From assembly GCA_012518535.1 (NCBI GenBank), contig JAAYRX010000144.1, positions 1-40,297 of the forward strand: DNA of 40,297 nt, written 5' to 3'. This stretch comes from Clostridiales bacterium (lineage in GTDB: Bacteria > Bacillota > Clostridia > Caldicoprobacterales > UBA3941). Positions 2,043 through 8,012 of this stretch are shown piece by piece; the stretch's first letter is position 1, and every line of letters begins with the position of its first letter. The notes below the pieces were generated by a model that ran no database searches, was not told the origin of the DNA, and was given only the letters and a program-made list of their open reading frames with translations. A program made the position numbers and the translations under genes.

Positions 2043-2084
2043 TTGATCTAAATCAATGATTTAGCTAAAATATGGGTTTATAAT
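2043..2084 (+). promoter_or_regulatory. FNR-type box and -10 element (class II arrangement)
   Basis: TTGATCTAAATCAA at 2043-2056 is a perfect match to the FNR consensus TTGAT-N4-ATCAA. A perfect -10 TATAAT lies at 2079-2084 and there is no recognisable -35. If transcription starts 7 bases after the -10 (about 2091), the box centre falls at -41.5, the classical class II activator position. An overlapping 8-bp inverted repeat CTAAATCA-a-TGATTTAG covers 2048-2064. The promoter reads into the HMA gene and the FNR-like gene. Confidence 0.8.
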
Positions 2085-2113: not shown

Positions 2114-2329
2114 ATGACCACAAAGACTTATCAACTGGAGACATTGGTATGCCCCAGCTGCATGGCAAAAATAGAAGGGGCCTTAAAGAGGATAAATGGA
2201 ATAGAAAAATCCAAGGTGTTATTCAATTCCAGTAAAGCCAAAGTGACCTTTGACGAAAGCGTAGTGGACTCTGACACCATTAAAAAGGCTATAGAAAAAG
2301 TAGGTTTCGAGGTACTGGGCGAGAAATAG
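2114..2329 (+). CDS. Heavy-metal-associated (HMA) domain protein, CopZ-like
   Basis: A 71-residue single-domain protein of the HMA/ferredoxin-like fold. The metal-binding motif is LVCPSCMAKIE, with Cys13 and Cys16 as the CxxC pair; the usual methionine before the first Cys is replaced by LV. The rest, including NSSKAKVTFDESVVDSDTIKKAIEKVGFEV, fits the HMA beta-alpha-beta pattern well. Such proteins bind Cu(I) or another soft metal and act as chaperones or small metal sensors. GGAGG lies 9 nt before the ATG. It is the first gene of a pair with the FNR-like regulator 46 nt downstream, behind an FNR box. No P-type ATPase is adjacent, so a copper export role is uncertain. Confidence 0.85.
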   Translation: MTTKTYQLETLVCPSCMAKIEGALKRINGIEKSKVLFNSSKAKVTFDESVVDSDTIKKAIEKVGFEVLGEK

Positions 2330-2375: not shown

Positions 2376-3059
2376 ATGTTATTATGCAATTGCATGAAAA
2401 GGGATGGAAAGAACTGCATTGAGCTTGTACCTATATTCAGTAATCTGAACTACGATGAGATGATGGAGATAGCCAGAATAACAAGGGACAGGACCTATGA
2501 AAAGGGTAGTATGATCTATATGGCGGGGGATAAGGATGAGAGCCTCTATGTCATACATGAAGGAAAGGTCAAGATCTCCAGGTTATCTGATTCTGGCAAG
2601 GAGCAGGTTCTAAGGGTCTTGGGACCCGGTGAGTTTATGGGCGAGCTTACCCTGTTTAGCCATAATCCCCTGACTGATAATGCCGAGGCTTTGGAAAAAA
2701 CAGTAGTATGTGTTATAAATGGCGCAGAATTGAAAAACCTTATGTCCAAGTATCCAGCCATTGCCTTTAAGGTGCTGGAGGAATTAAGCCGAAGGCTGAC
2801 ACGAGCTGAAAACCTAATAGAGAATATTAGCCTTCACAGCGTAGAGCGTAGACTGGCCGACACCCTACTGAGCATGGCTGACGACAAGGGAAAAATTGAA
2901 CTTAAGATGAGCAGAAAGGACCTTGCATCCCACCTGGGTATGAGCAGGGAAACCCTAAGCCGTAAATTGTCATCCTTCCAGGAGGAGGGATACATTGAAC
3001 TTATAGGTCATAGGAAAGTAAAGATCCTGGATGAAGATGCCCTGATGGACATAGAATAA
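2376..3059 (+). CDS. CRP/FNR-family regulator with FNR-type Fe-S cysteines
   Basis: A 227-residue CRP/FNR-family regulator. Residues 15-130 form a cyclic-nucleotide-binding-like beta-roll (GPGEFMGELTL) and 150-222 a winged helix-turn-helix. The recognition helix MSRETLSRKL keeps the E-x-x-S-R pattern that E. coli FNR uses to read TTGAT. Three N-terminal cysteines (Cys4, Cys6, Cys14) plus Cys112 in ALEKTVVCVI are present; Cys112 aligns with the fourth cluster ligand of E. coli FNR (ALETSMVCEI). This suggests an oxygen- or NO-sensitive [4Fe-4S] sensor, though the C-x-C-x7-C spacing is not the E. coli one. GGGGG precedes the ATG. A perfect FNR box ahead of the operon suggests autoregulation. Confidence 0.9.
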   Translation: MLLCNCMKRDGKNCIELVPIFSNLNYDEMMEIARITRDRTYEKGSMIYMAGDKDESLYVIHEGKVKISRLSDSGKEQVLRVLGPGEFMGELTLFSHNPLTDNAEALEKTVVCVINGAELKNLMSKYPAIAFKVLEELSRRLTRAENLIENISLHSVERRLADTLLSMADDKGKIELKMSRKDLASHLGMSRETLSRKLSSFQEEGYIELIGHRKVKILDEDALMDIE

Positions 3060-5265: not shown

Positions 5266-5310
5266 TTGATAATTGTCAAACTGTACACCTTTTATCACCT
5301 GTGGTATAAT
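5266..5310 (+). promoter_or_regulatory. Promoter upstream of the F420-ligase-family gene, with FNR-like half-match
   Basis: TGTACA (5282-5287), 17 bp, then TATAAT (5305-5310) with an extended -10 TG. Just upstream lies TTGATAATTGTCAA (5266-5279), one base off the FNR consensus. Its centre is about 44.5 bp before the expected start site, 3 bp from the ideal class II position, so control by FNR is only a possibility. Confidence 0.5.
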
Positions 5311-5465: not shown

Positions 5466-6653
5466 ATGGCACGAACGGTAGGTACAACAGTAAGGGGTAT
5501 AATAACCCCCATACTCAAAGAGGGTGATGATTTAGTACGTTTTGTAGTTGATTCTGTCCTTAGAGCCATGAAGAGTGAGAATTTTAACCTCAGAGACATG
5601 GATGTACTGGGGATTACCGAATCCCTGGTTGCACGAGCGCAGGGTAACTATATACCTCTTGATGATATTACCGTAGATATTAATAGATTGTTTACCGGAG
5701 ATATTGGCCTCGTATTTCCTATTCTGAGTCGTAATAGATTTCTGCCCATACTCAAAGCTTTAGCTATGACGGAAAAGAAAATCCATGTTTTCCTAAACTA
5801 CCCATCTGATGAGCTGGGAAACCACTTAATGCAGGTAGAAAAGATGTATGAAGTGGGGATTAACCCTTATGCAGATCTGTTGACTGAGAAGCGATACAGG
5901 GAATTGTTTGGAGGTAGGGTGCTACATCCATTTACGGGCATTGATTATGTGGATCTGTACAAGAGCGTTGCTGTCAACGACAATATTGAGATATATCTAA
6001 CCAATGATCCAAGATCGGCCTTGGATTATACCAAGGAAATTTTAGTTGCTAACATACATGACAGGTTTAAGACCAAAGAAATCCTATTGGATGCGGAAGC
6101 TGAAAAGGTATTATGCCTGGATGATATCCTGACCAGGCCTGTCTCAAGCAAGGGATATAATACGGAATACGGGTTACTAGGCTCCAATATGGCTACTGAG
6201 ACCAGTATTAAATTGTTTCCGAGAGATTGCAACAAAATAGTTATGGAGATCCAGAAAGTCCTAAGGGAGGAAACAGGCAAACATATTGAAGTCATGGTAT
6301 ACGGCGATGGCGCTTTTAAGGATCCCAGAGGAAAAATCTGGGAGCTGGCCGATCCCGTAGTATCTCCTGGGTACACTCCCGGTTTGGAAGGGACACCTAA
6401 CGAAATCAAGCTCAAGTATATTGCGGACAGCCATAGTGGAGTCGTTGCTCCTGAAGATATGGCTGACCTGGTGAAAAGTAAGATCAGGTCCAAGGACCAA
6501 AACCTAATTGGCAAGGCTGAATCATCGGGGACGACCCCGAGACAGTTGACTGATTTATTGGGCAGCCTATGTGATCTGACCAGCGGAAGCGGTGACAAGG
6601 GGACCCCCGTAGTGCTAATTCAGGGTTATTTTGATAATTATGCCTCGGAATAG
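5466..6653 (+). CDS. Coenzyme F420:L-glutamate ligase (CofE/PF01996) family protein
   Basis: A 395-residue protein whose N-terminal third (VGTTVRGIITPILKEGDDL, then LRDMDVLGITESLVARAQGN) fits the F420-0:gamma-glutamyl ligase fold. It is longer than archaeal CofE (about 250 aa) and resembles the long variant that I recall being common in Firmicutes. The second half carries DPRGKIWELADPVVSPGYTPG and ADSHSG, perhaps forming the nucleotide/metal site. In CofE the reaction adds glutamate to F420-0 using GTP; here the real substrate is unknown because no other F420 biosynthesis gene is visible. GAGG precedes the ATG. The gene is followed, after 171 nt, by the flavodiiron protein. No membrane segment is seen. 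Confidence 0.8.
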   Translation: MARTVGTTVRGIITPILKEGDDLVRFVVDSVLRAMKSENFNLRDMDVLGITESLVARAQGNYIPLDDITVDINRLFTGDIGLVFPILSRNRFLPILKALAMTEKKIHVFLNYPSDELGNHLMQVEKMYEVGINPYADLLTEKRYRELFGGRVLHPFTGIDYVDLYKSVAVNDNIEIYLTNDPRSALDYTKEILVANIHDRFKTKEILLDAEAEKVLCLDDILTRPVSSKGYNTEYGLLGSNMATETSIKLFPRDCNKIVMEIQKVLREETGKHIEVMVYGDGAFKDPRGKIWELADPVVSPGYTPGLEGTPNEIKLKYIADSHSGVVAPEDMADLVKSKIRSKDQNLIGKAESSGTTPRQLTDLLGSLCDLTSGSGDKGTPVVLIQGYFDNYASE

Positions 6654-6824: not shown

Positions 6825-8012
6825 ATGGGCTTTACAATCAACGAAAAGGTCACCTGGGTAGGTAAAATTGACTGGGAGTTAAGGCGTTTTCATGGAGATG
6901 AATACTCTGTGGACAGAGGTTCCAGCTATAATTCCTATCTCATAAGGGATGAGAAAACTGTTCTCGTAGATACTGTGTGGAAACCCTTTGCCAAGGAGTT
7001 TGTAGCGAATTTAAAAAAGGAAGTAGATTTAAATGATATCGACTTTATAGTGATGAACCATGGAGAGATAGACCATAGTGGTGCTCTGCCGGAATTAATG
7101 CGGGAGATCCCCGATACTCCCATATACTGTACTGCCAATGGGATAAAATCCATTAAGGGACACTTTCATGAGAATTGGAATTTTATACCTGTTAAGACCG
7201 GAGATACCTTAAAAATAGGACAAAATGATCTGGTGTTTGTGGAGGCCAGGATGCTTCATTGGCCAGATTCCATGTTTACATATATGACAAATGATAATAT
7301 TTTATTCAGCAACGATGCCTTTGGTCAACACTATGCCTCGGAATACATGTATAACGACCTTGTGAGTCCTGATGAGTTATATAGTGAGGCGATCAAATAC
7401 TACGCAAACATACTAAACCCCTTCAGCAGTCTTGTTAAGAGAAAGATTGAAGAGGTCGTCAAGCTCGATATACCAATAGACATGATATGTCCAAGCCACG
7501 GCATTATATGGAGGAAGGATCCCCTGCAGATAGTGGAGCAATATATGAAATGGGCACAAGATTATCAGGAGGATCAGATAAGTATAATATATGACACCAT
7601 GTGGGAAGGTACCAGACGTATGGCTGAAGCCCTGGCTGAAGGTATAAAAGAGGTTGATGACAAGGTCAATATTAAGCTGTTTAACACATCAAAGACGGAC
7701 AAGAACGATGTCATTACTGAAATTTTTAAATCAAAAGCTGTTTTATTGGGATCCCCGACGGTTAATGGAAGCATTCTTACATCCATGGCGGCTATTGTGG
7801 ACCTTGCCGGTGGTTTAAAGTTTAAGAACAAGAAGGGAGCAGCCTTTGGCACCTATGGTTGGAGCGGGGAATCGGTAAAGATCCTTACCCAACACTTAGA
7901 GAATGCGGGTTTTGAAGTAGTTAATCAGGGTATTCGCGAAATGTGGAATCCTGATGATGCGGGGCTCGATAGATGCAGGGAGTTTGGCAGAGAATTTGCC
8001 CAAGCTCTATAA
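6825..8012 (+). CDS. fprA: FprA-type flavodiiron protein (oxygen/NO reductase)
   Basis: A 395-residue A-type flavoprotein: an N-terminal metallo-beta-lactamase-like diiron domain (1-250) and a C-terminal flavodoxin domain (253-395). All diiron ligands are visible: His79, Glu81, Asp83 and His84 in NHGEIDHSG, His145 in LHWPDS, Asp164 in SNDAFGQ and His225 in CPSHGI. The FMN phosphate loop is DTMWEGT (257-263). Such proteins reduce O2 to water or NO to N2O, protecting anaerobes; in clostridia they usually take electrons from rubredoxin, in methanogens from F420H2. AAGGAGG precedes the ATG. No rubredoxin domain is fused. A terminator follows directly. Confidence 0.95.
   Translation: MGFTINEKVTWVGKIDWELRRFHGDEYSVDRGSSYNSYLIRDEKTVLVDTVWKPFAKEFVANLKKEVDLNDIDFIVMNHGEIDHSGALPELMREIPDTPIYCTANGIKSIKGHFHENWNFIPVKTGDTLKIGQNDLVFVEARMLHWPDSMFTYMTNDNILFSNDAFGQHYASEYMYNDLVSPDELYSEAIKYYANILNPFSSLVKRKIEEVVKLDIPIDMICPSHGIIWRKDPLQIVEQYMKWAQDYQEDQISIIYDTMWEGTRRMAEALAEGIKEVDDKVNIKLFNTSKTDKNDVITEIFKSKAVLLGSPTVNGSILTSMAAIVDLAGGLKFKNKKGAAFGTYGWSGESVKILTQHLENAGFEVVNQGIREMWNPDDAGLDRCREFGREFAQAL

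Follow-up and report, generated by a model that had tools for sequence, protein, structure and literature searches.

Our data point to an FLP regulator with a local role, activating the metal-handling operon in which its own gene lies; it would sense metal and/or redox via two of its cysteines, Cys14 and Cys112, together with ligands in its N-terminal leader; we put the probability of this reading at roughly 0.6. The regulator, encoded near one end of the window (the whole 40,297-nucleotide stretch of DNA analyzed), is a clostridial, four-cysteine variant of the known FLP (FlpA-like) branch of the CRP/FNR family. It probably switches on its own operon via the conserved cysteine pair and a variable Cys/His-rich tail. 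The cysteine feature from which the analysis started is real, conserved and was correctly observed. The elements concerned are:

2043..2056, + strand: putative FNR/FLP box TTGATCTAAATCAA, an exact match to the FNR box, centred at 2049.5, about -41.5 from the inferred start
2079..2084, + strand: -10 element TATAAT, 22 nt past the box, recognized from its sequence
2114..2329, + strand: HMA-domain protein of 71 aa with the metal-binding CPSC motif (LETLVCPSCMAKIE); PF00403, 2.8e-12
2376..3059, + strand: FLP-type CRP/FNR transcription regulator of 227 aa (PF00027, PF13545, PF00325; tree; CRP/FNR fold match)
2385-2387 and 2391-2393, + strand: codons of Cys4-x-Cys6 of the leader, variable Cys/His ligand candidates; C-x-[CH] in 60/79 and C-x-C in 25/79 orthologues
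2415..2417, + strand: codon of Cys14, the invariant cysteine of the C-x3-V-P-I-F segment; 79/79
2709..2711, + strand: codon of Cys112, invariant, at the position of E. coli FNR Cys122; 79/79
2949..2963, + strand: recognition-helix residues E192-T-L-S195-R196, predicted FNR-type DNA specificity (FNR E209/S212/R213); E 78/79, S 79/79, R 79/79
6825..8012, + strand: flavodiiron-type protein (ODP/metallo-beta-lactamase plus flavodoxin); PF19583 8.1e-19, PF00258 3.5e-12

The translation of the open reading frame at 2376-3059 on the + strand (MLLCNCMKRDGKNCIELVPIF...ALEKTVVCVING...) belongs to the CRP/FNR superfamily, with a cNMP-binding beta-roll and a Crp-type helix-turn-helix. All its Pfam matches were over cut-off (cNMP_binding PF00027, 3.8e-25; HTH_Crp_2 PF13545, 2.1e-21; PF00325, 1.1e-8). 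An AlphaFold model (pLDDT 84.8) confirmed the fold, which matched CRP/FNR structures; the leader was not confirmed, and since confidence is low there (mean pLDDT 47 over residues 1-10), the model does not reveal its ligand geometry. The first-pass annotation had placed cysteines at residues 4, 6, 14 and 112, and these are indeed all the cysteines of the 227-residue protein; the interval that it marked, 2385-2711, runs exactly from Cys4 to Cys112.

To follow these cysteines through the family, we assembled a graded series of relatives from a search of related genomes, and then a scan at one genome per species that gave 80 named loci spanning Clostridia, Tissierellia, Bacilli, Spirochaetes and Acholeplasma relatives. 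Cysteines were counted in the 79 of the 80 named orthologues with an intact N-terminus, start codons being picked by Shine-Dalgarno context. Cys14 and Cys112 were each kept in 79/79 orthologues, at 42-95% identity, and both were absent from the unrelated clostridial CRP/FNR paralogues at loci L027, L028 and L031. At least one further leader cysteine was present in 73/79, and the few leaders that lack one may be mis-started, their start codons having been set by Shine-Dalgarno context. With two positions each at 79/79 and a further leader cysteine in 73/79, the pattern is beyond chance.

The spacing of the leader is another matter. The exact C-x-C-x7-C leader was found in 15/79 orthologues. Of the 18 with at least 60% identity, 12 have a C-x-C separated from Cys14 by 6-8 residues. 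In remoter orthologues the leader takes the form C-C-H-H, C-x2-C, C-x-H or other spacings, poly-His, or long His/Cys-rich tails. Thus, conservation of all four cysteines, which had been proposed as a check, held for Cys14 and Cys112 throughout, but Cys4 and Cys6 persist chiefly in the closest relatives. Because the leader spacing drifts while only Cys14 and Cys112 stay fixed, C-x-C-x7-C does not define a class; on the alignment, the known FLP family has a variable Cys/His tail, of which this spacing is one form among others. The leaders of three FLP proteins (loci L022, L023 and L071) are long Cys/His-rich tails, with tens of residues ahead of the Cys14 equivalent, and look like a metal-binding sponge on a transcription factor.

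We aligned the regulator and its orthologues with the E. coli FNR protein (locus L134). FNR Cys122 fell on Cys112 of the regulator, bearing out the proposal that this residue, invariant in 79/79, is the counterpart of the fourth FNR ligand. The alignment also put FNR Cys23 on Asn13, FNR Cys29 on Pro19 and FNR Ser24 on Cys14, such that the FNR arrangement C-x2-C-x5-C (Cys20/23/29) is not found in the regulator, whose C-x-C-x7-C leader leaves Cys23 and Cys29 without counterparts. In FNR, Asp154 blocks dimerization of the cluster-free protein; this column held Asp in 0/79 orthologues (A45 T17 S9 V6 M1 I1), the regulator having Ala144. The NCBIfam Fnr model, PRK11161, scored 81 bits on the regulator, below its cut-off of 228. 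The unmatched Cys23 and Cys29, Ala144 in place of Asp154 and the sub-cut-off Fnr score indicate that the protein, as far as its sequence tells, reads DNA as FNR does, yet misses the defining sensor features of FNR. The label FNR-type is therefore apt for DNA recognition (E192, S195 and R196 matching FNR E209, S212 and R213), but not for leader spacing or Asp154, and the monomer-dimer switch of FNR based on [4Fe-4S] and Asp154 is probably not the mode of this regulator. The two proteins share the CRP fold, the Cys122 and E209/S212/R213 equivalents and a TTGAT-N4-ATCAA site at -41.5; they differ in that FNR uses this box globally, whereas its use by the regulator would be operon-local.

Where the regulator does belong is suggested by a maximum-likelihood tree, built by a quick search with the leader removed, with a long outgroup branch and with FLP represented by proteins other than the L. 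casei and S. suis references, in which a 47-row clade (SH-aLRT 99) joined it with FLP-like proteins of Enterococcus and Lactococcus. E. coli FNR and the remaining CRP/FNR proteins of clostridia fell outside this clade. Homologues were also found on plasmids of Enterococcus, Aerococcus, Ligilactobacillus and Lactococcus, adjoining genes for a heavy-metal P-type ATPase, an HMA protein and, in several cases, Dps. Most of these lactic-acid-bacterial homologues have exactly two cysteines, which occupy the Cys14 and Cys112 positions, and their leader is rich in His. The regulator carries the FLP marks of an N-terminal cysteine before V-P-I-F and a cysteine at FNR position 122 (its Cys14 and Cys112), and its operon has an FNR-like DNA site at the promoter. 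With FLP, FlpA and FlpS (of Lactobacillus casei, Lactococcus lactis and Streptococcus suis) it has in common the invariant Cys14/Cys112 pair, C-x3-V-P-[IL]-F, the E-x-x-S-R helix, HMA and heavy-metal P-type ATPase genes in the vicinity, and TTGA-N6-TCAA boxes. It differs from them in having two extra leader cysteines (C-x-C) where those proteins have a His-rich leader, and in an operon without ATPase or Dps gene. FlpA is among the metal-homeostasis regulons of Lactobacillales (PMC3616900); the signal of FLP is called controversial in a second paper (PMC5039431).

The box at 2043-2056 and the TATAAT element would form a class II promoter ahead of the HMA-regulator pair, which is described here for the first time. 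Its centre comes to lie at -41.5, the position of a class II activator, because the transcription start is inferred to be about 7 nt beyond the -10 element. This layout recurs among relatives: TTGA-N6-TCAA was found within 250 bp upstream in 20/22 HMA-ATPase-regulator operons, with about 0.025 occurrences expected per 250 bp, as against only 2/40 loci with a lone regulator. The 20/22 figure comes from the relaxed motif; a search by exact consensus with one mismatch allowed gave 12/22, an undercount. At the 22-nt spacing, the hexamer agreed with TATAAT in at least 4 of 6 positions in 24/26 promoters, that of the window included.

TTGAY-N4-RTCAA sites number 13 in the window genome, 10 of them within open reading frames and one a stem-loop. 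The site at 2043-2056 is the sole one that is both intergenic and followed by a 6/6 TATAAT at 22 nt, and since no other consensus site in the genome has this combination, the likely target of the regulator is its own operon. We also considered that the genome might have a global regulon of the FNR kind; this is unsupported, as only 2043-2056 among the 13 sites has the full promoter layout. A second box-like site, TTGATAATTGTCAA at 5266-5279, is intergenic between divergent genes for a MATE transporter and an F420-ligase-family protein, 200 bp before the latter, and has a poor -10, which matches at no more than 3/6 positions when spaced by 22 nt. The genome also contains a second, weak CRP/FNR match, which could likewise use the 2043-2056 box.

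The HMA gene lies 5' of the regulator gene, 46 bases away. The adjacent HMA protein of the first-pass annotation is real, by its PF00403 match, and its link with the regulator is conserved. A LETxxCPxC HMA protein lies beside the regulator in 42/80 loci and a P-type ATPase of the heavy-metal type (TIGR01525) in 50/80. The operon and its promoter together suggest that the HMA gene is under the control of the regulator, instead of the HMA protein supplying the regulator with metal as the first-pass annotation had considered, and we regard an autoregulated metal operon as well supported by the sequence evidence. In the window, however, the operon has no ATPase gene, which shrinks the 'metal operon' to one HMA protein. 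Wherever the transmembrane motif of the relatives' ATPases was recognized (loci L033-L111; e.g. L039:3092-4990), it was CPG and not the usual CPC/SPC, whereas the motif of P1B-type ATPases is given as (C/S/T)P(C/H/P) (PMC9387928); a literature search for a CPG-type P1B ATPase found no paper. Compared with known HMA/P1B-type ATPase operons (CopZ-CopA, ZntA type), the window HMA protein is related to CopZ models and the relatives' ATPases score as heavy-metal ATPases, but the FLP-linked pumps have the CPG motif and the controller is of the CRP/FNR rather than the CsoR, CopY or ArsR/SmtB type. Two pieces of a CPG-type ATPase are found at contig ends of the window genome, outside the regulator operon (C38:18-1001 and C210:6-962; loci L124 and L125), and may be halves of one gene. 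Upstream of these pieces is a small ORF resembling a recurrent family (L109_12) without Pfam match, which several relatives likewise have together with an ATPase of this subtype.

The fixed cysteine pair, the exchangeable Cys/His leader, the putative class II self-activation and the CPG ATPase/HMA operon argue for metal and/or thiol redox as the signal. We propose that a dimer of the regulator binds the 2043-2056 box and activates its own operon, which would adjust transition-metal handling under oxidative or metal stress. The most likely sensor chemistry would be a thiol switch or metal site built around Cys14 and Cys112, to which the Cys/His residues of the leader (Cys4 and Cys6 in the window protein) might add ligands, or which they might tune. 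Metal binding or thiol oxidation would then move the N-terminal segment relative to the beta-roll, and thereby alter DNA binding. We favor such a thiol/metal switch because mononuclear metal sites tolerate Cys/His exchange and because the operon handles metal. Natural FLP variants, whose leaders hold from zero to four cysteines and whose hosts are mostly harmless anaerobes, could be used for testing the signal.

A real possibility, if not our expectation, is that Cys4, Cys6, Cys14 and Cys112 hold an oxygen- or NO-labile [4Fe-4S] cluster, the protein then reporting anoxia, oxygen or NO. The presence of exactly four cysteines, with Cys112 at FNR Cys122, is consistent with this, as is the C-x-C at 6-8 residues from Cys14 in most of the nearest orthologues. 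At least two leader cysteines occur in 31/37 Clostridia and Tissierellia vs. 4/22 Bacilli, with means of about 2 and about 1, respectively (raw figures, shared ancestry being ignored), and flavodiiron and hemerythrin genes recur nearby. An oxygen-labile Fe-S cluster with non-cysteinyl ligands is described for L. lactis FlpA in PMC5039431, where the L. casei protein is said to be possibly active without an iron-sulphur cluster. Many strict-anaerobe relatives keep four cysteines, which a [4Fe-4S] site would explain equally well. Such a cluster sits poorly with the unconserved spacing, with a Cys6 that is often His, with family members that have two cysteines, and with the unmatched FNR Cys23, Cys29 and Asp154 positions. 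Hence, a distinct [4Fe-4S] subclass, as first suggested, keeps the match of Cys112 to FNR Cys122 but is not established, its spacing occurring in 15/79 orthologues only. It is doubtful, though conceivable, that the four-cysteine FLPs of strict anaerobes coordinate a [4Fe-4S] cluster, or another metal centre, through C-x-C-x7-C...C, one ligand being exchangeable for His across the family. If so, FLP and FNR would have evolved separately on one scaffold, FLP into a tunable sensor of metal or Fe-S, and the metal pump that FLP drives would be one with a CPG motif outside the canonical set.

The L. casei FLP reportedly switches via a Cys5-Cys112 disulphide. A pure thiol switch, in which a reversible intramolecular Cys14-Cys112 disulphide would act metal-free and the leader Cys/His would be incidental, fits with these being the sole invariant cysteines, and the sole cysteines in several lactic-acid-bacterial homologues. 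We consider it improbable, as it leaves unexplained the extra leader cysteine of 73/79 orthologues, the C-x-[CH] of 60/79 and the link to metal genes. By fold and sequence, the regulator best matches CRP proteins that bind cAMP, GlxR among them, as would be expected of an ordinary CRP-type regulator with a small ligand in its beta-roll pocket and non-functional cysteines; the retention of Cys14 and Cys112 across the whole identity range, and their joint absence from the three paralogues, make this highly improbable.

Flavodiiron and hemerythrin genes are typical of oxygen/NO defence. The window flavodiiron gene is 3.8 kb downstream of the regulator, and in 13 loci of relatives a close homologue was found no more than 5 kb from the regulator, in several cases directly downstream. 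Hemerythrin-domain and DUF438-PAS-hemerythrin proteins adjoin the FLP regulator at loci L032, L034, L038, L039, L042, L046, L103, L069, L079 and L033, which suggests a connection with stress from oxygen or NO. Immediately 5' of the flavodiiron gene, 5466-6653 encodes a 395-aa protein of the F420-0:gamma-glutamyl ligase family (PF01996, 2.5e-53). At the other end of the neighborhood, 174-749 encodes the C-terminus of a pyruvate:ferredoxin oxidoreductase (TIGR02176 positions 981-1167), whose gene is apparently truncated where the contig starts.
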